In this document: positions 4,477-63,113 of the stretch, in pieces
Position numbering within the stretch: position 1 is the stretch's first letter
Layout: every line of letters starts with the position of its first letter
Assembly: GCF_963675165.1 (NCBI RefSeq)
Contig: NC_087382.1
Span: 4,193,963 to 4,257,962, forward strand
Length of the DNA stretch: 64,000 bases
Direction of reading: 5' to 3'
Source of the DNA: Halichondria panicea
Taxonomy: Eukaryota > Porifera > Demospongiae > Suberitida > Halichondriidae
Notes under the pieces: generated by a model
Seen by the model: the letters and a program-made list of their open reading frames with translations, nothing else
What the model was told of the DNA's origin: nothing
Database searches by the model: none
Program-made: the position numbers and the translations under genes

Positions 4477-6283
4477 GATTAAAATTCTTGAATGAAGATT
4501 TATTGATGTGAAGATTTCTTCTTAAGCGTTGATTGTAATTATTTTTTGCCTCTCGCAAAACTCCTTTTATACTGTCTGATAGTCGATATGAAAAACATGG
4601 CATAATTTTAACACTATATCACTGTTAGCATCCTCAGTGACTATACTCTATATGGTATCTCACTATATTGTCATTGTTCATAAAACTGCTGAGTCTACAT
4701 GTCCTGTGAAGCCTTACAGGAATATAACAATGAGCTCGTTTGGCGTGTGATGTCTTGTGAACTTTGTACCGTTGCAAAGAAAAGTGTGTGACGTTTGATG
4801 AAGACTTTGTTTAACGTTGCAAAGGTTCGTAAAGTTAAGGCTTCGTGGTTTCATAATTATTAAACTCTTCAGGAAGGCCTTTCCAAACTTTTTTTCGAAG
4901 CAGGTGAACTTTTTAATGAAGCCTATACAGCAGCCACATATGCGCCATCATGTGCAGTATTCCCAAATTACCCGAAGACTTCGCAAACTTTTTTAGCAAC
5001 GTGTCGTACACATTTATTGCTGATGATGTGACTATACTTTAAATGTCTTATTGCCCACTAATTTCCTAATACCGTATATGCTCGATCAGAGCAGCTCTTG
5101 TATAAAGGCCGCTCTCAAATACCTTATTGTTACTATTATAAACGGGTACTAATTTTAGCGAATTTTAGTGAATTTGTAATTAACTCTAAATTAAGTATGC
5201 GCTAATAATAAAACACAATTCTATATACGTGACTATATCTACAACAAAGTTCACAAAGTTCAACAAGTTCGAAATTGAATTGAATTGATAACTTTCACAT
5301 TTGCAATTATTGTTGGTATAACATAATTATAAAAAAAACAAACATTTCATTCCATGTCAATAAGTGTGTGACCCCCCCCCCCCCAGAATCCCTGGACCCC
5401 CCCCTAGCTCTGGTCAACTACAATATAGTCTAACACGTACATAAAATAATGTATATAATTATACCACAGTTTGTGGACGATTATCCAATAATTATATATC
5501 CCTCTATAACGCTTATAATTGGCCCATAACGATTTCTGTGTACTTGTTTACCACTGGCTGTCTCACTAACTCTTATATAGCGCCAGTTTGACTAATTTCA
5601 TCCCATTAACCAGCTGACTATTATTAATAAGAGCTATAGATTATTTCTTAGACTGCCTACTCTAGCCTCTCGATCAGCATTTAACTGGTACTATACTATC
5701 ATGCACTGGATCATTGTTAAAAGTCCTTGATTGCTCAACCCTACACCTGATATACTATTTAAATAAGCATGTGAGGTCTTGTACCATATTACTAGATTAT
5801 TTTGCGGGTGAAAAACCTTTGTGAATGAGCCAAATCAGCAGAAAATTTGATCCTTTGCAATCTAACTATTGCGTTCTGGCAAGGATCGTGTGTATTTACT
5901 AGTAATAATTTAGATTTTGCGGATTTTATTGTTGCGAATTGATCAACCATTGCAAAGTTTGCAAATTTTTGATGCTCGCAAAACATTCTAGCATTGTATA
6001 TATTCTACCATATCTGCCTCCCTGTAATAATTATACTATGTGCATCAATTAACTATTGCTTATAAAATACCATCATGCCCCTCCCTCTTGCCCCTCCCTC
6101 TTACTTATTTCTCCACACAATTTCTACAAAATAATGACTGCACTAAATAAGCACATGCAATACAGAACCATGTGATGCTCTATATACTATAAAGTATACA
6201 GCTATACACCTAACTATAAAAATGATAAAATTCCAGCTTTCTGTCTGTTCAGCTTAATTCTCACAGATGAGTACCCATTTAAG

Positions 6284-7246
6284 TTACTCGCACGTTGGTG
6301 CCATACATGACTTAGCACGAACTCTCATCTCAGCATAATCGAAGGCCATGAAACCTCCAGCGCTTCTTTGATGGAGCTGTGGACGAGGGTCTAATGATAT
6401 ACCAACGTTGTAGCAGTCGTCGACGTTGAACCACCACCCTCCATTTCTACGTGCAGCACATGGGTTTTCGTTGTTTCTATCTTCTGTAGTAAATTTCAAT
6501 GCATTGTGATAACCAAAGAAGTCGAATCCAGTGTGCTGTTGGTCAGAAACTTGCAGTGTGTAGCTTGTGCCGGGTCCTTCAACTTGAAATTGACCATACG
6601 ACAATATCAATTTTGTGCCGTTAATTTTGCTCACTTCAATTTCTACCTCCATTGGCTGTGCATTTGTAAGACAGTGCATGTTCTTTAGTCCGTACCAGAA
6701 CTCGCCACTCAGGTTTCCGAATCCATTCTCATAATCGACCCAATTTCTGTCGAAATATGTTCGCTCAGCAACGTTTGGTGTCCTTCGAACGAGAACGATC
6801 CATCCACCATCACCACTCTCCATGTTACAGCGTGCTTGCACTGGGGATAAGTCCAGGCCAAATGGCGTAGTTGGGCAGAAATCTTTGATGTTATAGATAC
6901 CAGATTCCAGGTTTTGGTCCAGTAATGTTTTGGAGACTTGTGCTATCTGCGAATGTGTATGGTGGTTAAGGCATTGTATAATTATACATGTATTTAATTT
7001 AATTTTGTTATCTATTTGCTTGCTATGTATATATCCATGTATATGTGAATAGCTTTATTTCACTTGTACAAAATGTATATGTATTACCTGGCAACAGTCC
7101 TTGTGCATAGCCGTGGCACATGTTTTCTTCAGCTGTAGCGCTTCCGTAAGAGATTGTTGGAAACGATCGGAGCAATCGCTGATTGGAGTACCAGTTGCAG
7201 TTGCCATGAGACCAGCAACTACTATCACCACAGCTTTCCACTCCAT
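6284..7246 (-). CDS. Secreted fibrinogen-related protein, type A copy 3 (FReD-A3)
   Basis: Exons 7246-7088 and 6946-6284 join at phase 0 to give 273 aa. Signal peptide, Cys linker and FReD are intact, and the FReD exon is the same at protein level as copy 2. The upstream spacer of this copy, unlike the others, carries a LINE fragment with a poly-A end and a broken A/B fusion gene, so this unit is longer than the first two. Function as for the other type A proteins: a secreted recognition or matrix lectin by family, with unknown ligand. Confidence 0.9.
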
Positions 7247-7887
7247 GGTTAAAAAAATTCTTGAATGAAGATTTATTGATGTGAAGATTTCTTCTTAAAG
7301 TAAGCGTTGATTGTAATTATTTTTTGCCTCTCGCAAAACTCCTTTTATACTGTCTGATAGTCGATATGAAAACATGCATAATTTTAACACTATATCACTG
7401 TTAGCATCCTCAGTGACTATACTCTATATGGTATCTCACTACATTGTCATTGTTCATAAAACTGCTGAGTCTACATGTCCTGTGAAGCCTTACAGGAATA
7501 CAACAATGAGCTCGTTTAGCGTGTGATGTCTTGTGAACTTTGTACCGTTGCAAAGAAAAGTGTGTAACTTTGCAAAGGTTCGTAAAGTTAAGGCTTCGTG
7601 GTTTCATAATTATTAAACTCTTCAGGAAGGCCTTTCCAAACTTTTTTTTTCGAGGCAGGCGAACTTTTTAATGAAGCTTATACAGCAGCCACATATGCGC
7701 CATCATGTGTAGTATTCCCAAATTACCCGAAGACTTCGCAAACTTTTTTTGCAACGTGTCGTACACATATAATTATTGCTGATCATGTGACTATACTTTA
7801 AATGTCTTATTGCCCGTTATTGACTGGTTGACTAGTAATTATGGCTTATAACCAACCTCAGCCTCGGGCGTACTAATTTCCTAATAC

Positions 7888-8470
7888 CTTTTTTTTTTTT
7901 TATTTTATTATTTTTTTTTTTTATGAAAGATTTAGCAATTAATTGCAAGGATACACAAATAGCTACAAAGCTAGGGTGAAGTGAGTCCTATAACATACGT
8001 TTTAATAGTTACAACATGTCAACTAGATGTGAATACAGATGTGACTTAAATGAACTTATACTAGTACAGTCTACTAAAGTAAAGTCCTTGTGGCTAACCA
8101 GCCTATTCCATATTGTGATTGCATGCGGAAAAAATGAGAATTTATAAAAGGATGTTCTACATTGGTAGGGGACCAGAGTAAAACAGTTAACAGTTCTACT
8201 ACTGTACGTCATATTCTCTTGGTTGCTGGGTTGTTTGGGAAGTCAGTTAGATTGTATAGTATTTTGAAAAGGTGGCATAGCACCGCAGCAAGGCGCCTCA
8301 GCTGCAGAGAAGGAAGCCTGGTCAAGGTGAGCAATTCTTCACTTTTCAAATTCCATTTCTTCAGACAGACTCTCATAGCAAATCTCTGGACTTTTTCTAA
8401 ATTGTTTATTTCACACTTGTGAAATGGGTTCCATACAGAGGATGCGTACTCCAGATGTGGTCTCACGAAC
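7888..8470 (-). mobile_element. 5'-truncated LINE fragment, reverse transcriptase C-terminal end, with poly-A tail
   Basis: On the minus strand 8466-8209 reads RPHLEYASSVWNP, LEKVQRFAMRVC and LPSLQLRRLAA, and 8212-8009 continues with TYSSRTVN and KFSFFPHAITIWN. These are the familiar C-terminal blocks of non-LTR retrotransposon reverse transcriptase proteins. The two pieces are in different frames (frameshift near 8210). The element ends in a T-rich run at 7888-7921 on the plus strand, i.e. a poly-A tail at its 3' end. Flanks match an uninterrupted spacer sequence in sister FReD units (near 2012 and 5057), so it inserted after the duplication. The clade cannot be fixed from this piece. Confidence 0.85.
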
Positions 8471-8735
8471 GATGAGACAATATATTATGCTTGATCAGAG
8501 GCCGCTCTTGTATAAAGGCCGCTCTCAAATACCTTATTGTTACTATTATAAACGGGTACTAATTTTAGCGAATTTTAGCGAATTTGTAATTAACTCTAAA
8601 TTAAGTACGTGCTAATAATAAAACGCAATTCTATACAATTATAGTCTCTGATTCAGTAACTATATCTACAACAAAGTTCACAAAATTGTCATGTTCAGTT
8701 CTTTTCCCTTCTTTTCGTACTCACAACTATCAGGA

Positions 8736-9241
8736 TCATCATGCACCGAAAGCTGGGCAACCTTTGGGACGCACTCGTAGCTCAGCATAATCATAGGGAA
8801 TATAGTAAAATAGGTCATCGTGATATAGCTGAGGTTTCGGCGTGTCAGTTAGATATATGCCGTAGCAGTTATTAAACCAGAATCCGCCTTCGTTGAAAAA
8901 TTTTGAACAACTGCCGGAGTCTAGGTCATTATCTTGATCAAATGTGACGTCATAATATCCTATATCCTCACTCTAACACATTGGAATCTGCAAAGAAAAA
9001 GGAGCTGAAACTAAATGTCCACTTGAAGTGGCCTTATGTATGATTATATAATTATGTGCATATGTGCATGCATGTTACCTGGCCAGCAGTCCTTGTACAT
9101 AGCCGTGGCACATGTTTTCTTCAGCTGTAGCACTTCCGTAAGAGATTTATGGAAACGAGCGGAGCAATCATCACTGATTGGAGTCCCAGTTGCAGTTGCC
9201 ATGAGACCAGCAACTACTATCACCACTGCTTTCCACTCCAT
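8736..9241 (-). pseudogene. Hybrid FReD pseudogene: type A signal exon joined to a type B FReD C-terminus
   Basis: Exon 1 (9241-9079) is a type A signal-peptide exon (MEWKAVV...), but an extra base before the donor changes DCCQ to DCWP and shifts the phase. Downstream only the last third of a type B FReD remains (about 8942-8736: FDQDND, GGFWFNNCY, AELRVRPKGC). A good acceptor (TTTCTTTGCAG, near 8988) precedes it, but reading on from exon 1 hits a stop within seven codons, and the phase-0 frame also has a stop. The FReD N-terminal half is missing. It appears to be the scar of recombination between A and B units; it could still make a short secreted peptide of about 60 aa. Confidence 0.75.
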
Positions 9242-9560
9242 GATTGAATGAAGGAATTGATTTCTTGATATGAAGCTTTCTTCTTATAATTATATAGCGT
9301 CGATCACAATTATTAATTTTGTTTGCCTTCCCAAACTTCTTTTATACTGAAATTCGGTTATGTTAAGCATGCATAATAATATACTGTACTTGCTGTATGT
9401 TTTCTGTGTACCAATACCATGCATATGTTGTTTACCACTTGTTGTCTCCACTGATAGCATCAGTGTGGCTATATTGGTACTACACAGGTTCATCGTTAAG
9501 AGGACTTAATTGCTATCGTGTGTGAACTCTATGGCTGATTTTATTGAAGTAGTGTTTGAT

Positions 9561-9965
9561 GTCTTGTGAAATTTGTAGCATTCTGTACCCAGCGGTGTAT
9601 GTTATCCATCATCTGCCACATTGTGTACTGTAAAGCCCTGCATGGCTCCATGTGTTTGTGTATACAGCTATGCATGAGTTGGTATAGCGTGAGATGTCTT
9701 GTGAAATTTGTAGCATTCTGTACCCAGCGGTGTATGTTATCCATCATCTGCCACATTGTGTACTGTAAAGCCCTGCATGGCTCCATGTGTTTGTGTATAC
9801 AGCTATGCATGAGTTGGTATAGCGTGAGATGTCTTGTGAACTTTGTAGCCCTGCGGTGCATGTTATCCACCATCTACCACATACTGTATGCATGACTCTA
9901 GCGTACAGCAATAAGCAATAAGTTGGTATAATTATAGTGTGAGATGTCTAGTGAACTTTGTAGCC
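9561..9965 (+). repeat. 135-bp tandem repeat, about three copies with decay
   Basis: The word gtcttgtgaa recurs at 9561, 9696 and 9831, an exact 135-bp period. The first two copies are nearly identical; the third is shortened and a weaker fourth trace is near 9945. Because 135 is a multiple of three, open frames of about 110 codons appear on both strands; I treat them as a by-product of the repeat, not genes. Confidence 0.85.
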
Positions 9966-10342
9966 CTCTATACAGTGCATTTTCCACCATCGACCACTTT
10001 TGTGTACTGTATAAAGCCTTGCATGCATGACTCATATATATACAGCAATAAGTTGCTCTTGTGATGTGTAGCCCTATTTTCACTAATTCATTATATTAAT
10101 GACTGCACAAAATGCTAACTCGTGATTCTCTCTTCCTATTTGTTAAACGAGTGCATTTTTTTTAATCAACTCCAACTTTATTTTGTTATAAATGCTATAT
10201 AATTATAAGCACACGTAAATACAGAACCATGTGATGCTCTATACTATAAAGTATACAGCTATACACCTAATTATAAAAATGACAAAATTCCAGCTTTTTG
10301 TCTGTTCAGCTTAATTCTCACAGATGAGTATACCCATTTAAG

Positions 10343-11308
10343 TTACTCGCACGTTGGTGCCATACACGACTTAGCACGAACTCTCATCTCAGCATAATCG
10401 AAGGCCATGAAACCTCCAGCGCTTCTTTGATGGAGCTGTGGACGAGGGTCTAATGATATACCAACGTTGTAGCAGTCGTCGACGTTGAACCACCACCCTC
10501 CATTTCTACGTGCAGCACATGGGTTTTCGTTGTTTCTATCTTCTGTAGTAAATTTCAATGCATTGTGATAACCAAAGAAGTCGAATCCAGTGTGCTGTTG
10601 GTCAGAAACATGCAGTGTGTAGCTTGTGCCGGGTCCTTCAACTTGAAATTGACCATACGACAATATCAATTTTGTGCCGTTAATTTTCCTCACTTCAATT
10701 TCGACCTCCATTGGCTGTGCATTTGTAAGACAGTGCATGTTCTTTAGTCCGTACCAGAACTCGCCACTCAGGTTTCCGAATCCATTCTCATAATCGACCC
10801 AATTTCTGTCGAAATATATTCTCTCAGCAACGTCTGGTGTCCTTCGAACGAGAACGATCCATCCACCATCACCACTCTCCATGTTACAGCGTGCTTGCAC
10901 TGGGGATAAGTCCAGGCCAAATGGCGTAGTTGGGCAGAAATCTTTGATGTTATAGATTCCAGATTCCAGGTTTTGGTCCAGTAATGTTTTGGAGACTTGA
11001 GCTATCTGCGAATGTGTATGGTTGTTAAGGCATTGTATAATTATATATACATGTATTTAATTTAATTTGTTATCTATTTGCTTGCTATGTACATATCCAT
11101 GTATATGTGAATAGCTTTATTTCACTTGTACAAAATGTATATGTATTACCTGGCAACAGTCCTTGTGCATAGCCGTGGCACATGTTTGCTTCAGCTGTAG
11201 CGTTTCCGTAAGAGATTGTTGGAAACGATCAGAGCAATCGCTGATTGGAGTACCAGTTGCAGTTGCCATGAGACCAGCAACTACTATCACCACTGCTTTC
11301 CACTCCAT
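10343..11308 (-). CDS. Secreted fibrinogen-related protein, type A copy 4 (FReD-A4)
   Basis: Exons 11308-11150 and 11005-10343 join at phase 0, giving 273 aa. All type A features are present. This copy is the most diverged of the four: V for N in the RTP(N/D)VAER segment region (D instead of N), R for S in VEVEIEV(R/S)K, H for Q in the SYTL(H/Q)VSD segment, and T/Q changes in the linker. Splice sites are conserved. It stands next to the type B copies and marks the boundary between the two subfamilies. Confidence 0.9.
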
Positions 11309-12194
11309 GATTAAAATTCTTGAATGAAGATTTATTGATGTGAAGATTTCTTCTAAAGCGTCGATTGTAATTATTTTTTGCCTCTCGCAAAACTCCTTTT
11401 ATACTGTCTGATAGTCGATATGAAAAACATGCATAATTTTAACACTATATCACTGTTAGCATCCTCAGTGACTATACTCTATATGGTATCTCACTATATT
11501 GTCATTGTTCATAAAACTGCTGAGTCTACATGTCCTGTGAAGCCTTACAGGAATACAACAATGAGCTCGTTTAGCGTGTGATGTCTTGTGAACTTTGTAC
11601 CGTTGCAAAGAAAAGTGTGTAACTTTGCAAAGGTTCGTAAAGTTAAGGCTTCGTGGTTTCATAATTATTAAACTCTTCAGGAAGGCCTTTCCAAACTTTT
11701 TTTTTCGAAGCAGACGAACTTTTTAATGAAGCTTATACAGCAGCCACATATGCGCCATCATGTGCAGTATTCCCAAATTACCCGAAGACTTCGCAAACTT
11801 TTTTTGCAACGTGTCGTACACATTTATTGCTGATGATGTGACTATACTTTTAAATGTCTTATTGCCCGTTATTGACTGGTTGACTAGTAATTATGGCTTA
11901 TAACCAACCTCAGCCTCGGGCGCACTAATTTCGTATATTATGCTCGATCAGAGGCCGCTCTTGCATAAAGGCCGCTCTCAAATACCTTATTGTTACTATT
12001 ATAAACGAGTACTAATTTTAGCGAATTTTAGCGAATTTGTAATTACTCTAAATTAAGTACGCGCTAATAATAAAACGCAATTCTATACAATTATAGTCTC
12101 TGATTCAGTAACTATATATATCTTCAACAAAGTTCACAAAATTGTCATGTTCAGTTCTTTTCCCTTCTTTTCGTACTCACAACTATCAGGATCA

Positions 12195-13190
12195 TCATGC
12201 ACCGAAAGCTGGGCAACCTTTGGGACGCACTCGGAGCTCAGCATAATCATAGGGAATATAGTAAAATAGGTCATCATGATATAGCTGAGGTTTCGGCATG
12301 TCAGTTAGATATATGCTGTAGCAGTTATTAAACCAGAATCCGCCTTCGTTGAAAAATTTTGAACAACTACCTGACTCTAGGTCATTATCTTGATCAAATG
12401 TGGAAAATTTCATTCTGTTTTTACGACTAAAGAAATCATGGCCTTCATACTGTTTGTCCGACACATGCGGTGTGTAACTTGTATCAGGTCCATCCACTTT
12501 AAAGTTATCGTACGGAAGAACATTTTTTTGCCATCAGTCTTTTTCAATTCAATTTCAACCTCCATTAATTGGCTCTCGACTCATAAGACAGTGCATGTTC
12601 TTTAGTCCGTACCAGAACTCGCCACTTAGGTTCCCGAATCCATTCTCATAATCCACCCACGGCCTTTTGAATGAAACTCTCTCATCAACGTCTGGTGTCC
12701 TCTTCACTAGCACTGTCCATCCACCATCACCACTCTCCATGTTGCACAGAGTTTTCATGCTTGCTTGAGTGAAGGCTTCAGTACAGGGACAAGCATTTTT
12801 GATATCGTAGATCCCTGATTTTGGAGTGTATAGTTATCATTGATGATGATTATGGATGCTTCTGCAATCTGTGTAAATTTTTAATGTGATAACTGTGATT
12901 ATATGTAATATGATCATGCATACATAAATTATATAATCTCACCACTGTAGTTAATGTCATTAGTAGCTATAGTTGTATAATAATATAATGAATAGTAACT
13001 ATATATACGTGTATAATTGTTAGCATTTGGTATATAATATATCAATAATAATAATTATAGCATTAGCTATAATAATTATAGTAGATATAATTATCTTACT
13101 TGGCAGCAGTCTTGAATGTTAGCATCCACGCAGTACTTTTTTGCCGCTTTTTCGAACCTTGACATTGACATTGACGTTTTTGCTGTCGGT
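12195..13190 (-). pseudogene. Type B FReD pseudogene (FReD-B1), signal exon deleted
   Basis: The FReD exon runs from about 12870 to 12195 and resembles the intact type B gene downstream in order (14463-15467). Compared with that gene it has a 2-base insertion near 12826, a +1 insertion near 12568 that puts a stop at 12555, and a -1 deletion near 12522 that restores the frame. The first exon (13104-13160) keeps the donor end (QDCCQ-type) but has lost roughly 130 bp containing the start codon and signal peptide; the sequence jumps from the linker straight into the upstream leader. Three indels plus the deletion make a functional protein very unlikely. Confidence 0.8.
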
Positions 13191-13479
13191 GTGTGTGTGT
13201 GTGTGAATGCTGGTCCTAACTTGTTTCAGATTTGTAATACTACACTGGACCATACATTTTTGTATCACTGCATGTACTGGATCATTAATTGTATAGAGGG
13301 CGTGGTGTATCACCTGGTATATGTAATGGAAGTAAAGAAGCTTCCACTATTGGCGCCAGTTAGTTGTTGGCATGTATACTGGATCATTAATTGTTTAACG
13401 TGTCACTGTCACTGTCACAATGCGTGTAGCTTCCGGTATAATTATGCCTTGGTGCGCATGCGCAAGCGAGGTATGCTAG

Positions 13480-13840
13480 GAGCGTAGCCAGGATTTGCGC
13501 CAAAATTTTGACCGGAAGCCACGCCTCTTAAGTGTGACGTCATATTTGACATATCTATTTAGTTGCGTGTGGCCTGATATTTTATTTGCATACATGAAGA
13601 AGAAGCTAGTTTAATTAGCAAAGAACTATAGATTTAGACCAGAATAGCTCACAGTTTAGAGACTAAATTATTTTGCTTGCCTATACTAGCTAGCTAACTG
13701 CAGCAAGATTCAGAAGAAAAGTAGTGCTCAGGAAGATAATCAGATACGTACACTAACCTAGCTGAGCTGAGTAGTAGAGATCCAGAAAAAGGGGGGGGGG
13801 GGGCATTTGCCCCCTTTGCACCCCCTGGCTATGCCACTGT
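13480..13840 (+). mobile_element. MITE with CAGTGGCRTAGCCAGG-type terminal inverted repeats
   Basis: The left end reads gcgtagccaggatttg and the right end ccctggctatgccactgt, its inverted partner. The interior contains a G-run and gaagccacgcctctt. A related interior is found around 33489-34130, which begins acagtggcgtagcctgg. No coding capacity. The end sequence is of a kind common in non-autonomous DNA transposons of animals; the superfamily is not assigned here. Confidence 0.6.
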
Positions 13841-14462
13841 ATAGGGTAGTGTGTTTGTGCATGTGTCTCTGTGTCTGTGTGTCTATGTAGACTGCTACAG
13901 CTGCATGCTCAAGGATCAATCAAGTGCAAGTAAGAGTTTCTATTAGTCATGTTTACTTGGATTTTAATTAGTGGATAATGCTTCGTTCTCGAGTTATGCC
14001 TAGTCAGTTTTGCTCTTAATAATTGGAATGCCATTTGCAGCCTTTTCAGAAGAATGCGTGTATCAAAACTTGTCCATGGAGTGTTGCTACTCAGTTAGCT
14101 CTGCACTAGAATGCTATATAGCTATTGGCAGCTGCAACAGTGGGAAGAGAGCTGCAAGTTTTTACAGGATTTTCAGACCTTTGTACACAGTTTGTGGGAC
14201 GACTAACCTTATTAATTTTGGTTTATGAGGTTCATGCAGCATTCATGGGATATAGTTGTATTCATTATTCTACCTCAATTCTCATAATTGCGACACATCT
14301 TCTTTGATTTGCTAAAGTTCAGTTTGGATGTTTCTACACATCCATAATTACACACACTAATTAGTCCTCTGATTCAGTATCTATAATTATATCTACAACA
14401 AAGTTCACAAAATTGTAATGTTCGATTATTTTCCTTTTTCTTACTCACGACTATCAGGATCA

Positions 14463-15467
14463 TCATGCACCAATAAGAGGTGTGCAAGTTTTGGGACGCA
14501 CTCGTAGCTCAGCATAATCATAAGCGGTAGTGGTACGACTATAATAAAGCTGAGGGTTAGGCATGTCAGTGAGATGCATGCTGTAGCACCGATTAAACCA
14601 GAACCCGCCTCCGTTGTAATGTTGTGAACAACTATAACTCTTTTTCTTGTCATTATCTTGATCAAGCGTGGAGAATTTCATTCCATTATGAGCTAGAAGA
14701 AAATCAAAACCCTCATATTTTTTATCCGACACATGCAGTGTGTAGCTTGTATCAGGTCCATCCACTTTAAAGCTACCATACGAAAGAACTAGTTTTGTGC
14801 CATCAGTCTTTCTCAATTCAATTTCGACCTCCATTGACCCTTGTCGACTCGTAAGACAGTGCATTTTCTTTAGTCCATACCAGAACTCGCCACTCAGGTC
14901 CCCAAATCCATTCTCATATTCCACCCACGGCCTTTTGAATGAAACTCTCTCATCAACGTCTGGTGTCCTCTTTATTAGCACTGTCCATCCACCATCACCA
15001 CTCTCCATGTTGCACAGAGTTTTCATAAAGAGAAGGTTTGCTTGAGTGAAGGTTCCAGTACTTGAACAGGTATTTCTGATATCGTAGATCCCTGATTTTG
15101 GAGTGTAGTTGCCATTATCGATGATCTTGGATGCTTCTGCCATCTGCATACATTTTTTACTTTATGCCACAACTGTTTACAGTAAATATAATTATTGTTA
15201 TGATCATATCTCACCATGCACTGTAGTTAGTATTAGCTATAGTTGTATAGAATATCCAACAACTACATGTATAATTGTAGAATTTGGTAAATAAAAATAG
15301 CTTACTTGGCAGCAGTCTTGAACGTTAGCATCCACGCAGTATTTTTTCTCGTCCGTAATCTTCTTGAGTGATTCCTCGAACCTTGTCAAGCAGTTGCCAA
15401 CGCTCAGTATTGCTGTAGATCCCTCCAACAATACAGAGATGAGGAGAACTGCCAGTTGTAGCTTCAT
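14463..15467 (-). CDS. Secreted fibrinogen-related protein, type B, intact (FReD-B2)
   Basis: Exons 15467-15306 and 15143-14463 join at phase 0 to give 280 aa. The chosen start gives a clean signal peptide (MKLQLAVLLISVLLEGS); an upstream in-frame ATG at 15497 would only add a charged extension. The linker again ends in QDCCQ before the donor. The FReD has SGIYDI, LCNMESGDGGWTVL, GFGDLSGEFWYGL and GGGFWFNRC, and keeps DQDND at the calcium-binding position, unlike the type A proteins. The closing AELRVRPKTC is present. It is the only intact type B gene in the cluster; the neighbours on both sides are broken relatives. Confidence 0.88.
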
Positions 15468-15740
15468 CTTCTTTGCTCTTAGTTGATATGTTGACATTGA
15501 TGTTTTTGCTGTTGGTGTGTGTGTGTCTGGTCCTTTTATAGAAGCATGCATGCATGCACGAAAAACCTGTTTCAGATTTGTACATACCTGCTGTCTCACT
15601 ATATTAGCGCCAGTGTGGCTACTAGTATGGATCATAAACTTGTAGAAGGTTTAATGTATATCACTGTGTGTGCCAGTGTGGCTTCTGGTATGTACTGGAT
15701 CATTAATTGTAAAATTGTTTACAGGGATTGATGTCTCATT

Positions 15741-16495
15741 TTTGTGTAGCTTGTACTAGGTCCATCCACTTTAAAGTCACCATACGAAATAACTTTTTTT
15801 GTGTCATCAGTCTTTCTCAATTCAACTTCGACGCTCTCGACTTTAGTCCGTACCAGAACTCGCTACTCAGGTTCCTGAATCCATCCTCATAATCGACGCA
15901 AGGACGACTAATAAAAGTAAACTCTCTCTCATCAACGTCTGGTGTCCTCTTCACTAGCACTGTCCATCCACCATCACCACTCTCCATGTTGCACAGAGTT
16001 GTCATGCTTGCTTGAGTGAAGGCTTCGGTATTTGGACAGGTATTTCTGATATCGTAGATCCCTAGCTGATTTTGGAGTGCATGTAGTTGTCATTATCGAT
16101 GATCTTGGATGCTTCTGTAATCTGCATACATTTTTACTTTAATAACGTCGCTATACTGTTTCCATGCATGCAGTAAATGTTATTATCGTTAGCAATGATC
16201 ATACTTTACCATGCAGTAGTTAGTAGCTATATAGTTGTATAGAATGATCCAGTGGTGTACAGTCAACTATACATGTATAGTTATTAGCATTAGGTATCTA
16301 TACTATCATAATAGATATTTTACTTGGCAGCAGTCTTGAACATGCATATGCATGTACGCATTCTTTTTTGTTGTCTGTAATCTCCTCGGTGATTTCTCGA
16401 ACCTTGTCAAGCATTCTCAGTAATGCTACAGATCCCTCCAACAATACAGAGATGAGGAGAACTGCCAGTTGTAGCTTCAGTTGATATGTTAGCAT
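15741..16495 (-). pseudogene. Type B FReD pseudogene, truncated (FReD-B3)
   Basis: Exon 1 (16495-16324) is like the intact type B signal exon, but the MKLQL start codon has mutated, leaving only the upstream MLTYQLKLQL start, and extra bases shift the frame before the QDCCQ donor. Exon 2 (16121 downward) has the FReD N-terminal part (LCNMESGDGGWTVL, SSEFWYGL), loses the HCLTS block by deletion near 15845, and stops matching after VDGPSTSYT near 15741. The calcium site and C-terminal half are absent. Confidence 0.8.
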
Positions 16496-36666: not shown

Positions 36667-39447
36667 ATGAACCGATGCTGTACAAAGTTATTCCTCGTAA
36701 TATTTGCCTTAATTAATTCTCCTTGTTCTCTGCAACGGTGTCACTGGTAAGTCCAAAAACTAATATACAAAAACGAGCTTTAATTTCTAGGCTACTGCTT
36801 GATAGATGATCTATATTTTTTTCTATTCCAGCCGGTAGTTTTGTTTCTGTGCCTGAAAATGTGACTGTTTATTCTGGGGAAATGGCAAGACTTACATGTA
36901 AGGTAACTCAGAGTGGACAGAGCGGACTCTACTGGCTGATTACTGAGGAGCGTTTGCTACCAAGTAATCTCCCAGACTTCTATCAAGCAAGTAGATATAT
37001 CTGGAGTCCTGAAGGATTTGATGACCCATACACAACTTCCATAGCTTTGGAGATGATTGGAATATCTGAAACCGATAATACATCAGTGGAGTGTATAGGA
37101 CATTATTCGAATGCAGGATACATTCTCAGTGATAAAGTGTACCTAAGGGTACAAGGTAAAAATAGTTATAAGTACATGTACGTGTATATTTCGAGGTCCT
37201 GGTTAAGCATGTAGATCTACCGCACCCACGAATTTAATATCGTATGCTGCTGCTATTCCGCGAAAGTTTATATCCTTGAAATATACCCGCTATATGGTAT
37301 ATAGACACTAGTTGATAAGATCTATATGGAAAGTACATGGGAAAAGTGCCTCAGAGCAGGTATACTATGGGACTTAGTATACTAGTATTCTGTTGTCAAG
37401 TAATTGTATTGTAGTCAAGCCTCGAGGGCAAGGTTTGCGCGTGTGCACTAGATCTAGACACTGTTCTGTCGGTGTCCATGTGATTTACAAGCCCTCAGCC
37501 ACCCTCGCTATACACTCGGGATATTAAATCAGTGCCCATAGACAAAACAGTGTCTAACTACTATGTATAGGCGGACCATAACAAGTATGTGGAGCTAGAG
37601 CTTTATCTAGAAATGATTACCATGGACAGTGGAGTCATCTTTTAGCTTGTAGAAGTTGGTCTATATAAGTTTGTATCAGCACAATACACGAGAAATCGAG
37701 AGATTCTCTTAAAAATAGGGCTCCGAAAATGGTGTTCGTTTCAGTATTGCTACTGTTATTTTCCGGCAGGCGTTCATTTCCAAGGAGAGCATAACTTTTA
37801 CTATCTGCTGTTTATTTCGTACAAAGTACAAAAAATGATAACCATGCATGTCACTTGTGTGAATTAAAAGAAAAAAACGACATAAGTGTTCACTAAACAA
37901 CCTCTGATATTAGATTTGTTGCTCGTGTCACATTGTAGGAATTCTCAATGCTCCAAGTAATCTGGCAAGCTCTGCGGTAATCAATGACTCAGTGCTGATA
38001 ACCTGGACTCCTCCCTCTACTCTGCCGGGTACTACCATGAGCTTCACAGTCAACGCATCAGTCGAAGACCACTCAGAAACCTTTACTACCTCTCAACACG
38101 ACTTCCTTATCAGCCTATGTGATCTTGGTGTTAGCGGTTGTTACTCCAATTGTGAGCTGAGTGTGTCTGTGAGAAGTATCAACCAAGCTGGTGAAGGAGA
38201 ACCAACATCCATCACTGTTCCTGTCCAACCGTTCTTATGTGATGGAGCTGAACATGGTATAATATGTACATTTATGCAGTGTATTGTCATTGACTTTGTT
38301 CCTCTTAATTGTGCGTGTCTGTGCAGATAGACCAGGACTCCCTACAGACCTTGTAGCCAGTGCTCTGGACGACTCTCTATCTGTGTCTTGGTCACGCCCC
38401 TCCTCCAGTCACCCCATTTCCCACTATAGTGTGGATGTATGGGATACTCAGACAGAGTCCCTAATAGCCAATGGAACTGAAATTACTGATCTGCAGTATA
38501 CACTGGAGTACATGGCTGTGGGCATAGATACATGCAATAGAAGTTATAACGTTGTAATCAGTGTTTGTGGGGTGAATGTTGCTGGTAAAGGCAAGACTGC
38601 AAACACAACTATGGCAATACAACAAAACATGCAGTCGTGTCCTACTACTTCTGGTAATATCTTTGGCTATAATATTGTACATAATTCCCTGAATTGTTTA
38701 TGCCAGATTGTGGTAATCTTGATCTGTTATAGAATTAAGCATTGAGTTTTCTGGTACATACGTATGTATATACAAGGTACTTTGCCCATTAATATGTATA
38801 CTTAAATTCAAATAGTTAATTTTCATTTGTCTTTCTCATACAGTTGTAGAAAGTGTCACAACTCCACAAGTATCTGCCTCAACCCATTCGCCACATCATT
38901 TCCCCCAAGGTTTGTTGTGTCTGTATTATTGGCTGGTTAATATACACAAAACTTAGTGTATGTATTGACTCTTTGTTCTTTGAACTACAGATCTAGTGCC
39001 ACACCTCATGCCAATTGTTGCTGGTGGTGTAACAGCCGTAGTACTACTGATGATTTTGGCAGGTATACTGATAATAATTGTGTATAATTATAGCCTCCTT
39101 GCAATTGTCTCTTACTCAATTTAAACATTCTCCAGTTACTGTTGCAGTATGTATTTGTGTGAAAAGAAGAAACAAGATAGATGGTAAAGTTGCCGGCAAC
39201 ACTGTAATCCTATGAAATGTTTGCTTCCAACTTATTTTTTGCAGATGATTCTAAACGATCATCCTTTGAGACTGGAAAGAATCCATCATACGGATATTCC
39301 CCTCCTCTAACAAAGAATCCATGTTATGAAAAACCGCATCAGTACGAGTCAATTGACCCAGTTTACAGTACCGTAACTGAGGTTAAAGTTCAACCACACC
39401 CAACGGGTGTACCTTCCCAATTATACCCGGCTCATGAGAATGCGTAG
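36667..39447 (+). CDS. Ig + two FN3 transmembrane receptor with tyrosine-rich tail (R2)
   Basis: Eight exons, 36667-36746, 36839-37155, 37939-38256, 38327-38653, 38844-38909, 38991-39062, 39136-39183 and 39245-39447, give 476 aa; all introns after the first are phase 1. Residues 1-22 are a signal peptide. About 27-132 is an Ig-like domain (LTCKV, GLYWL, SVECIG). About 133-238 and 239-347 are FN3-like (NAPSNLASS/ITWTPP/GEGEPTS; PGLPTDLVA/VSWSRP/NVAGKGK). A Ser/Thr linker, a transmembrane helix (about 376-401, then KRRNK) and a 75-aa tail follow. The tail has PSYGYSPPL, NPCYEK, HQYESIDPVYSTV: several Tyr in SH2-type context. Exon 2 is joined at ccggtag; the other nearby acceptor (attccag) gives an immediate stop. 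Ligand unknown. Confidence 0.85.
37213..37301. mobile_element. Partial MITE, family 2, R2 intron 2
   Basis: cacccacgaatttaat...gaaatatacccgctatat, the right-hand end of the family whose complete copy is at 50103-50375. A similar partial left end is at 39745-39830 downstream of R2. Confidence 0.6.
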
Positions 39448-41725: not shown

Positions 41726-44113
41726 TCACACAATTTCTTCGTAAATGTGCAGTTCGTTATCAGAATTGCATCCATATGCATCATTAACTTTCATTGGTAA
41801 ACTTATGCCGTAGGCTTCATTTTCTCGCAGATTCACATTTTGATGTTCATTTGATCGCTGTCTCTTTTTTACAATCACAAGTATTTTGATGATTGCAACT
41901 GACACTCCTGCATTATGAATGAGACTAAAAATGTTTTGGCGGCATAATAGAAGTACATACCACATATTTGTGCTATTACAGCAGCAACAGGAGCAATCAC
42001 AGTCCACATAATTTCCGAATCTGTATCTGAATATGCATGCATGGTGTAATATATTATGACAGCGTAGTTGACGTTGGATACATACATACCCTGAGTAGTC
42101 CCGGTCGTAGTTTCCGTAGTTGCTTTTCTGGTGAATATATACATATCCTGAGTAGTCCCGGTCGTAGTTTCCGTACTTGTTTCTCTGGTGGATACATACA
42201 TACCCTGAGTATAGTCCCGGTCGTAGTTTCCGTAGTTGTTTCTCTGGTGGATACATACATACCCTGAGTAGTCCCGGTCGTAGTTTCCGTACTTGTTTCT
42301 CTGGTGGATACATACATACCCTGAGTAGTCCCGGTCGTAGTTTCCATACTTGTTTCTCTGGTGGATACATACATATCCTGAGTAGTCCCGGTCGTAGTTT
42401 CCGTAGTTGTTTCTCTGATGGATACATACATATCCTGAGTAGTCCCGGTCGTAGTTTCCGTAGTTGAGGGTTTTGTGCTCGGTCTGGTTGTTTTAATAGT
42501 TGTAGTGCCTAATGGATAAGTGATATTATTATAGTATTCACTGACTGCATTGCTCCATTCATACCTGCATCAGGGGTAGTGGGTATGACTGTACCTGTTC
42601 GGTCTTCAGTCACATGAAATAGAGATTACATTACATATGAAGCAAATGCACACCTGCATCATGCGTGTGCACAACTTGTGTAAAGAATCATGCAGTGAAC
42701 GTTTAGTGCCTCGAAAATAACCAGCTATTATGGTAAGTTACATTATAGAAGTGCAATAAATAGTGCAATATGTCTATATACGAGCTCTTCAACATACCCT
42801 GTTCATCGGTTAATTGAAGAAGAATCAATAAAGTTTGCTGACTATGAATAACCCGGCTACCATCAGATGACATTGTCAGCGCTAAATATTTCACTCGAGT
42901 ATTATTGTTGAACTTGCTTGGATTAGGAATATATATGTTGATCTGTCTATTTGTGATTCGTTCAATCCATATATTTGTCTTATTATCGTACCTACACTGA
43001 TGATAATATAATGAAGGCCTTTCACAATTTGAATCTGAACATAATTGTATATCAACAATGTTAGCGATGTCATTTACGATACAGCTAGCAAATCCCATTT
43101 GTTGAGTTGATCTAATAGTATAGCTACTCTCAGGACAGAGAACGAAATCTGCATGTAAAATAATGTATATAATTATGTAACAGTAACACAATTACTCTAT
43201 ACTATATATAATACATACCACAGAATACTGAGAACAAATGAACACTCTTCTCTCAAATTGGTGTCAACTGTCAACACACCAAAATTAACGAATAAGAAAT
43301 TACCACAATTGCGTCAGCATACCGGGTATATTTCGAGGGTATATGCATGTTTGTGGTTTTCGCGGATTAAGCATGTACCGCAAACATTTATAACTGTGAT
43401 TGAAATATAATATCGCATGCTGCAAAAGGCTGCTATTTCACGAAAATCAAGTCCACGAAAACCTTTCTAAAGGCATTTCCACGAAAATTTATATACCCTC
43501 GAAATATACCCGCTACACGATAACTTATAGGTGTGCAATGTCTGGATATAACAGGAGCAAATCCTCTAAACTATGTATGTACATTGCATGCATGCATGCT
43601 CATGCACACATAAAAAACTCACAATCTTCACAGCCCTCTGTGGTAGAAAAATTATTCCAGCCTTGAAATGGCCCGATTAAGCTATAGTACAACTCTCGTC
43701 TTGAGCGATACAGTAACAAGTTAGAGACTGCATGAAAGAGAAAAACACTCTGACACTGCATCACCATAGTAAACTAAACTATAATAAAGCTCGGCTATAG
43801 GTTGTGAATCACCAGTATATATATAAAATGTCTATAGTCTGTTAAGTCAGCATCTTATACAATGCTACCCAATCTATAAACTGCTCTGTTTATATGTGCC
43901 ATAATTATGGCAGCCAGTTCATGCAACTCTCATGTGCTGTAGAAGCTATTATACAATTATATGTAGTGAATAGTTAACCTCGTGCAGTCTGCTAGATCAC
44001 ATAGGTATACAAGTATAATTATAGATCTATATAATAATTATGGTCATATAATTATAGTATAAGCTTACCTTAAAAGACAGTATTGCCAAGATGTATGCAT
44101 AAAACTTCGCCAT
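41726..44113 (-). CDS. Repeat-stalk transmembrane receptor with NEAYGI/YEEI tail (R3)
   Basis: Seven exons: 44113-44069, 43755-43623, 43148-42798, 42594-42565, 42508-42263 (preferred), 42020-41961, 41907-41726; 348 aa. Phases 0 then 1 throughout. MAKFYAYILAILSFK starts a signal peptide; exon 2 holds WNNFSTTEGC; exon 3 is the six-Cys-type ectodomain shared with R1, R4 and R5 (FVLCPE, FASCIV, IQLCSD). Then follow a Thr-rich stalk with a 19-aa repeat, a transmembrane helix spanning the exon 6/7 junction, KKRQR, and a tail ending NEAYGISLP, NDAYGC, HIYEEIV. YEEI is the classic Src-type SH2 ligand form. The donor after stalk unit 4 (or 5) must be used: later donors lie beyond a 2-bp insertion and lead to a stop in the TM exon. 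Confidence 0.78.
42083..42475 (-). repeat. 57-bp minisatellite in the R3 stalk exon, seven units
   Basis: Units start with ctgagta at 42091, 42148, 42205, 42264, 42321, 42378 and 42435: all steps are 57 bp except one of 59 (unit 3 has a 2-bp insertion). On the minus strand a unit encodes MYVSTRETTTETTTGTTQG. Units 1, 3, 4 and 5 also contain a CAGG|GTATGT donor at the same place. Confidence 0.92.
43321..43520. mobile_element. MITE, family 2, in R3 intron 2
   Basis: accgggtatatttcgagggt at the left and ccctcgaaatatacccgcta at the right, with the ggttttcgcggatta interior typical of this family. Confidence 0.75.
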
Positions 44114-45791: not shown

Positions 45792-48033
45792 CTATGCAGT
45801 TCCATGGGCTTCAAGTTCCACTCGACTTTCAAGTACAATTTCTTCATAGATGTGCTGTTCTTCATTGGAACTGCAGCCATATGCATTATTGATTTTCATT
45901 GATAAACGTATGCCATAGGCTTCATTTTCTTCCAGGTCTACATCAGGATCTTGATGAGGAGTTGACCTCCATTGTTGCTTCTTTATTATCAAGAGCACTA
46001 TGATCAATGTAGCTGACGCACCTATACAGATTGAAAGAGATCTGTAACTATTAGCAGTTTTACAGTATAAATATATAAGGCATCATATCTCGCTCGTACC
46101 CAATGTAAAAGCTATTACAGCAGGAGTTGTAACAGCAGCAATCGTAATTATCACGTCTGAATCTGCATGAGTAAATCAGTGTTGCCATAATAATATACAA
46201 TGCAGTGCAGGTGTATATATATATATATATATACCAGATTGTGTATGTCTAGTTGTCACAGATCCACTAGTACTCGGTGCCATGGATTCACTGGTAATCA
46301 GGGTCACAGATCCACTAGTACTCGGTGCCACGGATTCACTGGTAGTCAGGGTCACAGATCCACTAGCACTCGGTGCCACGGATTCACTGGTAGTCAGGGT
46401 CACAGATCCACTAGTACTCGGTGCCACGGATTCACTGGTAGTCAGGGTCACAGATTCACTAGTACTCGGTGCCACGGATTCACTGGTAGTCAGGGTCACA
46501 GATCCACTAGTACTCGGTGCCACGGATTCACTGGTAGTCAGGGTCACAGATCCACTAGTACTCGGTGCCACAGATTCACTGGTAGCCAGGGTCACAGATC
46601 CACTAGTACTCGGTGCCACGGATTCACTGGTAGTCAGGGTCACAGATCCCGGTTCATTATTCCCTATATATATACACGGGTGACTATATATACTGTAATA
46701 TACATAGTACAACTACCTGTCACCAATAATCCGGGATAGAGCAGCTTGTATTTACTCACTATAATTATACTTCTGACTTAGGTCAACCCTATACACAGCT
46801 TCGGTTCCAGGCCAATTTTTCTTGAAAAATCGGGCCGGGGCCGAGGCTAGGTCAACCCAATCTCTACTATAATTATATAAGCATGCAAGAATGCCTAGGA
46901 TTCCAGCCTAGATTAAACGACTTGCGTAAGCATGGTATTGAATTAAGAGCAAAAGAAAATAATAGATACATCACCCTCATTAATTTTTAGTCAGCATGCA
47001 GCTGTAAATATAGGATAACCTTATAATAATTATAGCCTAGACCCATGCATATATATAGCTGGTGGTTTGCACACTTAATTGTACAACTACGTGTAAATTT
47101 CATCATACATAACTATATGGAACTTACCGTATCTGACAATAAAATTAAAACGCTCTAGCTCTTTCATCATTAAAAATGTGGTCCCTGTGTACTATGCATT
47201 GAATCGAAATTTCACAACTATTTATCACATTGTAGTTCTCAATGTACACAGTTACATGTCGGTTAAAGTCTGTCACAGGTCTTACATACACTATATTAAT
47301 GCCTGGAATAGTAGTACTGCTCTGAAAACAACGGCTTAATCCTATGTTGTTAAATATAGCTCCTGGGCCACAACCACAGCCACATTCAGCTGTTCTCACA
47401 GAAACTGCTGCTCTTTCCTCTGCTTGGCATGTTACAAACAGAACATTACTATCGACGCCAATGGCTTGATTCACAACTTCCATCGGAGGGCAAAGTTTCA
47501 AGTCTGTAATAAAGAGCCATGGCAAGTAACCTAAGGAAGAATCAGATGCAATGGCAGTGTAGTAAATTATAAAATTATGGTGAGAAATCTCAGTATATTG
47601 GTAGTGGAGAGGGAAGTACTTATAATTATTAAATATAATTATTATTATAAGCCATAATTACTAGTCAACCAGTCAATAACTGTAACATATGGCCCACTGT
47701 AAGCAACGATTGGCGCAAGAAGATGCATGGATCCCATAAAAATGTAGCCGAACCTCCTGTACTGATATATAAGATAAAACTCACTCTGCTGAGTCCCCTG
47801 CTGACACTGATTTGTAGACTTGTTTATCGCACCAGTAAGACCAATCAGTTCATTTCCATTGCACAACAGCTCCTGTCCATGAACGGTAGAAACGTAAGCT
47901 AGTAGATCTACCTGTAGCCAATAGAACGTATGGTATAAATCTAATCATCAGCACATGATAAGAAAACAAATATACATCAATATAAATTTACTGAAGCAAA
48001 TAGTAGCAGCAGGTCTATTATTAATGTTGCCAT
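45792..48033 (-). CDS. Repeat-stalk transmembrane receptor with NEAYGI/YEEI tail, one frameshift (R4)
   Basis: Six exons: 48033-47992, 47911-47785, 47503-47128, 46663-46235, 46162-46100, 46021-45792. Signal peptide MATLIIDLLLLFAS; exon 2 Cys-bearing; exon 3 the shared six-Cys-type domain (LKLCPP, VTCQAE, SIQCIV); exon 4 a Ser/Thr stalk of 16-aa repeats; a transmembrane helix across exons 5/6; and a tail with NEAYGIRLS, NNAYGC and HIYEEIV. All phases fit the R3 plan except exon 3, whose 376 nt is one base too long: read straight it stops at ARAF*, while a one-base shift near 47150 restores the expected frame to the donor ATACG|GTAAGT. With that shift the product would be 421 aa. Either a young pseudogene or an assembly error. 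Confidence 0.68.
46254..46650 (-). repeat. 48-bp minisatellite in the R4 stalk exon, about eight units
   Basis: The plus-strand word cactagtactcggtgcca recurs every 48 bp. Each unit encodes 16 residues of the form ESVAPSTSGSVTLTTS, with few substitutions. Forty-eight is a multiple of three, so unit number can vary without breaking the frame. Ser/Thr density suggests an O-glycosylated stalk. Confidence 0.92.
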
Positions 48034-60363: not shown

Positions 60364-61457
60364 ATGAGCAAGTTTTCTCTACTTTGCTTCATGTTAATCT
60401 ACTTGTCAATGATTGACCTTACTGCAGCTGAACATGAGTGTAAATAAATTCCCAAGTTCTGAATGATATGCTAAATAATTATAACAGCAATGTTACAGTT
60501 ACATAATTATTATATAGTCTAGTTGAAGGCTGACTAGTGTGGAAATCTAGATCTGTAGTATAGATGATCATTCTAGCTATATAGACCTATTGAGGCTACG
60601 TAATCTATTAATTGTGCCCATGTATAGGTTATGTGACTCAAAAACCCACTGTCAATATGGATTTTCAAAACCTGCAGCAAGCATCCATATCTATAAAAAT
60701 GATTTGTACCAACCTTATAAACTTGCTATGGATAGTAGATGACAAAGATACAATATCTACGACAGAATATCTACATGCTGTGGTCAGCATACATGTAGAG
60801 GAAAGTCTTCAAGGCGAGAACGCAATTGAAAGCAAGCTCATGTTCATACCAGCTCCAAATGAAAGACACACTATATACTTTAAAGCACTATACGAGGCAG
60901 ACAATAATGAACGGAGAATATACCGCAGTGAGTCCGTCACTGTTAAACTCTTACAAAGTAAGTGTATAAGTATCATCAAAATAATGTACTAACTCTCTTC
61001 CAATAGATAAGTTGAGTGCTCCAAGATTTACATTTTATGACGATTCCATCACGATATCGTTTGCCAGTCAATCAAGAAATATGCACCTAGAAATTGAGGC
61101 CACTGACAAAACTCGTACTCAGGGTGATTTTGACTGGATATGCAAACCAAAAAAATCTAAAATGCCGGTTAACCTGAGCAACACAACTAAACAATCTGGG
61201 AGGCATGTCCTTTTCCTTGACTTCTGTGAGCCTAACGGGACGTTTTCTCTAATGCATAGTACAGGTGTTGACGTCGAACTCCCGTCAGTGATAACATATC
61301 TGTCTAGTGCTGCTCAACACCGTAAGTTATAGCCTGCATAATTATTATATATAACTGACTATAATATCTTTATGATTATATAGGTACGCTGCTCACACAT
61401 TGGTTGCTACAGGTGATGGTACTAGTCCTTCACATTGCCTATTTCGAATTCTGGTAA
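60364..61457 (+). CDS. Ig/FN3-like surface protein with hydrophobic C-terminus (R6)
   Basis: Exons 60364-60439, 60628-60957, 61007-61321 and 61384-61457, all introns phase 1, give 264 aa. Signal peptide MSKFSLLCFMLIYLSMIDL; an Ig-like exon paralogous to R7 (both have WIVD and D(T/S)IS followed by an SKLMF or SRLSF strand, with a closing VTVKLLQ or ITIPVQ) but missing the second Ig cysteine; an FN3-position exon (SAPRFTFYDD, ITISF) with WICK and FCEP; then HWLLQVMVLVLHIAYFEFW and stop. The end is hydrophobic with no cytoplasmic tail: a GPI signal or a tail-less TM. It is divergent from R5 and convergent with the ITAM-bearing R7, so R6/R7 look like an anchored/signalling pair. Confidence 0.75.
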
Positions 61458-61594: not shown

Positions 61595-63113
61595 TTATTT
61601 GATGGTTTCATAAATGTGTTGCGTGCCAGGCAACGAAGCATAGGCTTCATTTTTCACTATTAGTTGTACTTCTCCATAAGCACTGTTCTTGCAGGTTGGA
61701 ATGCACTCCGGGGGGTCTGTTTTGATAATCATGCATGATCACTGACAGACATAGCAAAGTTATAATATTATATCTAATGCATGCATGCATACATGTATAC
61801 TGATTTTCACATAACTCACGCTCAACCGTCTGCTGTTTGCTTTGATATTGTCTCCACTTCCAAACCATAATGGAAATTATCATCAAAATAGTAGCTGTCA
61901 GGCATGCATGCACAATAAAAAAAATTATTGCAGCTTACATTACATGTATGTACTACAACGTACATTGAGGCAACATGCCACAATTATTCACTTACTCACT
62001 ATTGCAGTTACAGGGGCACAAATGTAAGCCACAAGACCTGCACGCGTGTATGTGTATATAATTTGTCATGTATGCATGCATGCATGTGCATGATGCATAG
62101 CCTTTTTAATTCGCAAGTTTCTGACATTATACCTAAATCATAATCTCTTGTTGTATCAATCGTAGAAGCAATGGGCACTGTGAAAGTGAAACGAAGGCTG
62201 TTTTGAGTTGAATTGATTGCAGAGGTGAATTTTACAACAGTGTTTCTTAAAGTTGTACTTGGTGTAATAACACAACCAGCTATGAGGACAGTCATGTTTG
62301 AGAAATTTCCAGCACCAGCAGGATTGTCAGCACGAACGCCAAATTCAACTTCCATGTCTTCACAACCACTATAGTTGTACTTGTATTCATAGAGAGGTTG
62401 GTGTATTAAAATGAGTTCAAAGCTACTATTGATACGAACTGCAACACTGTAAAGAGATACAGTGACCAGACTAGGGGGTGGATCCCACATAAGATTGATG
62501 ATGTGAATATTGCGAAATATCGTCGTATTCACATGAAAGTTAGGAGGAGAACTCAGTGCACCTATATAATTATGCACAGCAAAAATATAGAAAACAGTGA
62601 CTCAGAATCAACTCGTACATTTATACATGTCATAATTATAATTATCGAGTTACCTTGTACTGGTATTGTTATTGGGTCACTCCGCTCGATCATTCGATCA
62701 GGTCCATAAACCACACATTGAATGGTGTGGTTAGACTCAGAAATTGCAGTAAATGACAAACGACTATTCAGTACACTAGGTGATACTTGAAATAATTCAT
62801 TTTGAGCCATTAATTGGGTGTCTGCCAAACTAATTGAATCCATGCCATCCACAATCCAAAAAACAGTGATACTGCCAGTGCAAAGAGAACAGTTTAAGGA
62901 TATTCTTTGTCCAGAAAATCCCACTACAGGCTCAGGGGGGGATAAAAGACCTGCATTGGTGCATGCATGATCACATCATATTAATATAACTACAGTTATA
63001 CGTGCATGCAGACGCCAGCAGCTTATAATGATACACCTACATGCTTCCATCACAATGAACTTGTTAAAGTATTGTAGAAGAAAAAGTATGGTCAGGTACC
63101 AGCACTCTTCCAT
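61595..63113 (-). CDS. Ig + FN3 transmembrane receptor with ITAM- and ITIM-type motifs (R7)
   Basis: Exons 63113-63041, 62950-62654, 62561-62133, 62037-61996, 61894-61820 and 61716-61595, all phase 1, give 345 aa. Residues 1-24 are a signal sequence; 25-123 an Ig-like domain (LNCSL, VFWIVD, IQCVVYG); about 124-225 an FN3-like domain (SSPPNFHV, NLMWDPPPS, ADNPAGAGNFS) with a Ser/Thr-rich stretch to about 266; about 268-290 a transmembrane helix (VAYICAPVTAIVTTILMII), then KWRQYQSK. The tail has SAYGEV (Y319), NEAYASL (Y331) and HIYETI (Y341). Y331 and Y341 form YASL-PGTQHI-YETI, an exact YxxL-x6-YxxI; SAYGEV fits the ITIM pattern. The tail is related to R3 and R4. The tandem donors near 61996 (ATAGTGAGTAAG) leave two options; only GTAAGT keeps the frame. 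Confidence 0.82.

Follow-up and report, generated by a model that had tools for sequence, protein, structure and literature searches.

Our data indicate that R7, a receptor gene of the sponge Halichondria panicea with an exact ITAM consensus in its predicted cytoplasmic tail, is best explained as a diverged member of a receptor family that expanded by tandem duplication, as judged by comparison with its neighbours. The family has a common module, a split transmembrane (TM) helix followed by a short tail with three tyrosines; the outer parts differ, and the tyrosines are retained despite saturated synonymous sites. We consider it probable that the module is a conserved SH2-docking tail and that the full ITAM consensus was reached in one gene, rather than representing the function from which the family started. 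The origin of ITAM signalling, a central switch in vertebrate immunity, is debated. The stretch of DNA analysed here (the window) comprises 64,000 nucleotides of contig C6 (NC_087382.1), positions 4193963-4257962, and the genome searched comprises 131 Mb in 39 contigs.

Gene model and predicted domains of R7

R7 is a six-exon gene on the minus strand. Its exons, joined from genomic DNA, give a predicted product of 345 aa with no internal stop and a predicted layout of a signal-peptide-like start, an Ig-like domain, an FN3-like domain, a TM helix, and a short tail. The exons and tail features are as follows (positions in the window).

63041..63113, minus strand: exon 1, start codon and signal-peptide-like MEECWYLTILFLLQYFNKF (signal peptide by eye), donor GTAGGT
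62654..62950, minus strand: exon 2, Ig-like domain (Pfam matches under cut-off; relatives on contig C1)
62133..62561, minus strand: exon 3, FN3-like domain and membrane-proximal stretch (relatives on C1)
61996..62037, minus strand: exon 4, first half of the TM helix (hydropathy peak ICAPVTAIVTTILMIISIM across exons 4 and 5)
61820..61894, minus strand: exon 5, second half of the TM helix and basic juxtamembrane stretch (gene model)
61595..61716, minus strand: exon 6, cytoplasmic tail with Y319 (SAYGEV), Y331 (YASL), Y341 (YETI), and the stop codon
61640..61687, minus strand: part of the tail from NSAYGEV to NEAY, with the Y319 site and Y331
61601..61642, minus strand: ITAM match YASLPGTQHIYETI, found only in R7 among eight tails

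All five introns are bounded by GT...AG and all five are in phase 1, and an AATAAA lies 4 bases past the stop codon. The tail exon falls in an open frame at 61595-61738 on the minus strand, and plus-strand translation across the exon is interrupted by stops. The original prediction had placed a tail exon at 61595-61716; our analysis confirms it there, on the minus strand, as the end of a clean six-exon model. Since the hydropathy peak precedes the last exon, this exon is cytoplasmic, provided that exon 1 is a signal peptide, as judged by eye. The gene model and hydropathy also support the earlier view that the ITAM motif faces the cytoplasm in a plausible receptor, with the topology read by eye.

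Exon 2 matched the Pfam models Ig_3 (E 0.037) and C2-set_2 (E 0.029), both under the curated cut-off, and its single-sequence structure model is all-beta and of low confidence (pLDDT 53.5). Fold searching with this low-confidence model gave 0 of 913 PDB matches at E <= 0.001; the weak matches included LILRB4, LAIR-1, and SIRP, but unrelated proteins too. The single-sequence model of exon 3 was too poor for use (pLDDT 39.7), and R7 itself has no Pfam fn3 match. Exons 2-3 share 24-30% identity with receptor exons on contig C1 (best E 7e-8, at 27% identity). One of these relatives matched fn3 (E 7.5e-6; 26.5 bits against a cut-off of 25), and the same relative matched no Pfam Ig model at E <= 0.01. 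These relatives belong to a further group of Ig/FN3-type receptor genes at C1:10913782-11095303 (L053-L057), 24-30% identical to the outer part of R7.

Tyrosine motifs in the R7 tail and their chance levels

The R7 tail reads SAYGEV...NEAYASLPGTQHIYETIK and, in addition to its three tyrosines, there is a juxtamembrane tyrosine, Y297. Regular-expression searches bore out both motif matches of the original prediction. The stretch YASLPGTQHIYETI fits YxxL/I-x6-8-YxxL/I, with YASL and YETI forming an exact YxxL-x6-YxxI, and SAYGEV fits the ITIM expression [SIVL]xYxx[IVL].

Chance levels were estimated from 200,000 shuffles of the 41-residue R7 tail. A strict ITAM arose in 0.6% of full shuffles, in 4.1% with the tyrosines fixed, and in 14.3% with the tyrosines and YETI fixed. 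Within 154 kb around the locus, read in six frames, a strict ITAM was present in 21 of the 1627 stop-to-stop fragments that were 40 aa or longer, the R7 open reading frame included. The R7 ITAM is unusual for a random tail and not very unusual given these tyrosines. It could equally be a derived, selected feature.

The ITIM expression was matched by 11.7% of full shuffles and by 14.9% with the tyrosines fixed, and the SAYGEV match is weak evidence. If SAYGEV were a true ITIM recruiting a SHP-2-like phosphatase, R7 would be a dual activating and inhibitory receptor, and the genome does hold an SH2-SH2-PTP gene on C3. However, an ITIM-type site occurs at the SAYGEV position in 0 of 7 paralogues (P83738 carries ISYPTL elsewhere), which together with the shuffle frequency makes a true ITIM very improbable. 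The earlier description of the tail as both activating and inhibitory was built on this expression and is not supported.

A family of tails in one tandem cluster

Searching the genome with paralogue tails placed relatives of the R7 tail only at C6:4235670-4312106, in one tandem cluster. One neighbouring tail used as a query matched at seven positions, every one of them on C6 between 4235691 and 4312061, and a second matched at eight, likewise confined to this cluster, the additional one being a frame-broken fragment of a tail exon (C6:4276741-4276860; cluster position 82779-82898, minus strand). This fragment is probably a pseudogene and was excluded from the seven paralogues used here. Two of the paralogous tails are the following.

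41726..41869, minus strand: paralogous tail NEAYGISL..NDAYGCN..HIYEEI
45792..45977, minus strand: paralogous tail NEAYGIRL..NNAYGCS..HIYEEI

In two paralogues, at 42054-42569 and 46176-46712 (both minus strand), minisatellites with TTTETTTGTTQ and TLTTSESVAPSTSGSV units encode Thr/Ser-rich stalks that are open in more than one frame.

When used as a query, the R7 tail matched itself only, so its homology to the paralogues rests on a profile of the seven paralogues. Against this profile, the TM-tail region of R7 scored 15.9 bits, where 5000 shuffles reached at most 11.3; for the tail by itself the score was 12.2 bits (shuffle best, 9.8). Because the profile score lies above all 5000 shuffles, the frame of the last R7 exon is independently supported. 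The TM helix also appears to be split by an intron in the paralogue regions examined, with splice points read by eye. We considered whether the R7 tail might be a chance open frame and ruled this out from the splice sites, intron phases, poly-A signal, and paralogue homology.

Across the family, six of the seven paralogues retain the first tyrosine (Y1), with Cys in P98961; all seven retain the second (Y2), and six the third (Y3), P95037 having neither Y3 nor a YEEI site. The first site reads YGIS, YGIR, or YGVS in the paralogues. At Y2+3, R7 has L, whereas the paralogues carry N, S, H, or T and therefore fail the ITAM expression; the consensus is found in 0 of 7 paralogous tails and in R7 only (1 of 8). 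In contrast, every tail except that of P95037 has Y-E-x-I (7 of 8; YEEI in six and YETI in R7), and the family-wide end is HIYEEI or HIYETI, a Src-SH2-type site. The earlier ITAM/ITIM interpretation is partly supported: it gains from the receptor-like model and from candidate readers in the genome, described below, and loses from the lack of the ITAM consensus in the paralogues.

The tail tyrosines might instead act mainly as endocytic sorting signals (YxxPhi, bound by AP-2 mu) and not as phosphotyrosine sites. YGEV, YASL, and YETI in R7 all fit YxxPhi, but in the seven paralogues the third is the sole aligned site to fit it (6 of 7). After the other two conserved paralogue tyrosines come G-I/V-S/R or G/H-C-N/S/H/T, and a further YxxPhi match in P83738, YPTL, falls outside the aligned sites. 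Acidic EE after the tyrosine is atypical of AP-2 sites. We regard a mainly endocytic role as improbable.

Constraint on the tails

P95037, which is without the HIYEEI end, was omitted from the alignment and codon test and was counted among the eight tails and in the seven-paralogue profile. Over the aligned core, comparison of R7 with six paralogues gave pS of 0.83-0.95 and pN of 0.35-0.43, meaning that synonymous sites are saturated and at least a third of nonsynonymous sites have changed. Among the paralogues, the most diverged comparisons, those of P103178 with the other five, gave dN/dS of 0.08-0.19, and P41726 against P45792, P83738, P98961, and P117971 gave 0.25-0.34. The closest pairs gave 0.50-1.40 on few differences, or undefined values. 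These ratios support protein-level constraint on the older branches, a conclusion that does not extend to every young copy.

Candidate SH2 readers in the genome

There are 71 Pfam SH2 matches in the genome. Kinases were sought near the SH2 matches of loci L019-L048 and L061 (30 of the 71 matches and one further stretch), and the kinase domain search scored 129 of 1749 candidates. Since the kinase check covered 30 of 71 matches and one stretch, other tandem-SH2 genes may be missed. We found a canonical Syk at C4:4842437-4850857 (plus strand), with SH2, SH2, and kinase exons and no ankyrins. The best PDB match of its second SH2 (C-SH2) is SYK (E 3.5e-38), and the best single-domain matches of its kinase fragment are ZAP-70 and SYK; the top-scoring chain for that fragment, 9p9u_A, is named EGFR, with a score that sums two stretches. 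A second gene, at C9:5255024-5259199 (minus strand), reads SH2-ankyrin-SH2-kinase. Its first SH2 is nearest in PDB to ZAP-70/SYK, and we rejected it as a canonical Syk since ankyrin repeats lie between the SH2 domains (Ank_2, E 1.6e-28), which makes it HTK16/SHARK-type, a layout described in PMC9486129 and PMC10253181.

Other candidate components were also found. In the SH2-SH2-PTP (SHP-2-like) gene on C3, the second SH2 matches PTPN11 (E 5e-50). The region C9:1002000-1008400 contains two SH2 domains, an SH3-like stretch, and a C2 domain nearest PLC-gamma-2 (PLC-gamma, E 1e-30). C7 carries an SH3-SH2 matching Csk (E 1.7e-37) with a kinase, and C2 carries three single-frame SH2-kinases, of which the one compared matches Src (E 2.9e-159). 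Thus, it is possible that the genome also encodes the readers of R7-type tails, and these candidates are presented as new here. Separately, receptor-type tyrosine phosphatase-like domains form a very large run at C4 96577-2605514, a possible expansion.

These kinases bear on whether R7 carries a working ITAM, in which a Src-type kinase phosphorylates Y331 and Y341 and a Syk or SHARK-type tandem SH2 binds both. The consensus and spacing are exact in R7, a canonical Syk and a SHARK-type kinase are both encoded, and the Y2-Y3 distance, 10 in R7, is kept at 11 in the six other tails that have both tyrosines (ITAM range, 10-12). An axis of this kind is described in fly, where Draper signals via Src42A, its ITAM, and Shark (PMC4503800). 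Against this stand the consensus in just one of eight homologous tails and its 14.3% chance level once the tyrosines and YETI are in place. A working ITAM in R7 appears rather unlikely, albeit the strongest of the competing accounts of this tail.

Proposed function of the tail family

The account we favor, a conserved SH2-docking tail, would operate as follows. Ligand engagement would lead a Src-type kinase to phosphorylate the tail, and the C-terminal Y-E-x-I site might then hold a Src-type SH2 and so retain the Src-type kinase. The two upstream N-x-A-Y sites may recruit further pTyr-binding proteins. In R7 the second site would have changed to YASL, 10 residues before YETI, completing the ITAM consensus, and in R7 alone a tandem-SH2 kinase (Syk or SHARK-type) might be recruited as well. 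pYEEI is described as the best Src-SH2 ligand (PMC7337045). Counting against this account, R7 has YETI instead of YEEI, P95037 is without YEEI, P98961 has Cys for Y1, a ninth copy is the broken fragment, and the close paralogue pairs have high dN/dS on few differences.

A broader proposal is that the whole cluster consists of proto-ITAM receptors, in which Y2 and Y3, 10-11 residues apart in all seven tails having both, are read by Syk or SHARK after Src docks on YEEI. We judge this unlikely. If true, a germline Ig-receptor/ITAM/Syk pathway would exist at the base of animals, in a sponge, R7 would be the member with a complete vertebrate-type ITAM, and neighbouring tailless receptors would be possible partners.

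Comparison with known receptor systems

R7 resembles vertebrate ITAM receptors of the CD3 and FcR-gamma type in having YxxL-x6-YxxI in a short tail after the TM helix and a Syk in the same genome. It differs from vertebrate receptors that use Syk/ZAP-70 in that its consensus is not kept in homologous tails and its family keeps YEEI. Compared with Drosophila Draper-I, R7 is likewise an ITAM-bearing receptor in a genome with Src-type and SHARK-type kinases, but its ectodomain differs, and the ITAM-Shark interaction was shown experimentally for Draper, whereas for R7 it is a prediction.

Huene in 2022 reportedly found ITAM/ITIM motifs on candidate genes of the Hydractinia Alr family. Like Alr, the R7 family is a cluster of putative Ig-type receptors in a non-bilaterian, with ITAM/ITIM regex matches in some members; unlike Alr, it has a predicted Ig+FN3 outer part and YEEI-type tails, and the likeness is one of description. 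ITAM/ITIM motifs on Hydractinia allorecognition candidates are described in PMC12065747, so that finding an Ig receptor of ITAM type outside the bilaterians is no novelty in kind. The same source describes ITIM and hemITAM motifs on the IgSF receptors of Botryllus fuhc, which, like the R7 family, are clustered invertebrate receptors using tyrosine motifs, but which belong to a tunicate, have other domains, and are polymorphic. Oyster CgIgIT2 is described as having five Ig domains, a TM helix, and a classic ITAM, with microbe recognition reported (PMC11999971). Like CgIgIT2, R7 is an invertebrate receptor with an ITAM match and a putative Ig-like domain, but CgIgIT2 is bilaterian and has five Ig domains.

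In the literature searched, with most subscription journals beyond its reach, we found no sponge receptor with an ITAM. Syk itself is reported in sponges and hydra (PMC9486129), while another survey ties vertebrate-like invertebrate Syk, within cnidarians and bilaterians, to the presence of CARD-CC/Bcl10 (PMC5978004). The H. panicea genome combines an exact-ITAM tail with seven natural variants, described here as lacking only the hydrophobic residue at +3, and with both candidate tandem-SH2 kinases and relatives of Src, Csk, and SHP-2. R7 and these variants allow a test of whether the ITAM grew from a Src-SH2 docking tail.

Other genes in the window

The convergent neighbour of R7 at 60365-61457 (plus strand) has a signal-peptide-like start, an Ig-like exon with LLWIVDD, and a second domain; its first domain matched Pfam ACT_9 only (E 4.7e-5, under cut-off). 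Its C-terminal end is a hydrophobic stretch that looks GPI-signal-like by eye and is followed by no tail, so that a tailless gene lies beside the tailed R7. Another receptor, at 36810-39447 (plus strand), matches Ig weakly, carries two FN3 domains (Pfam fn3, E 1.7e-7 and 8.2e-8), and has a different tail with NPSY, NPCY, YESI, and YSTV. A tandem array of fibrinogen-domain-like genes, named by eye and several of them near-identical, occupies 318-16089 (minus strand).
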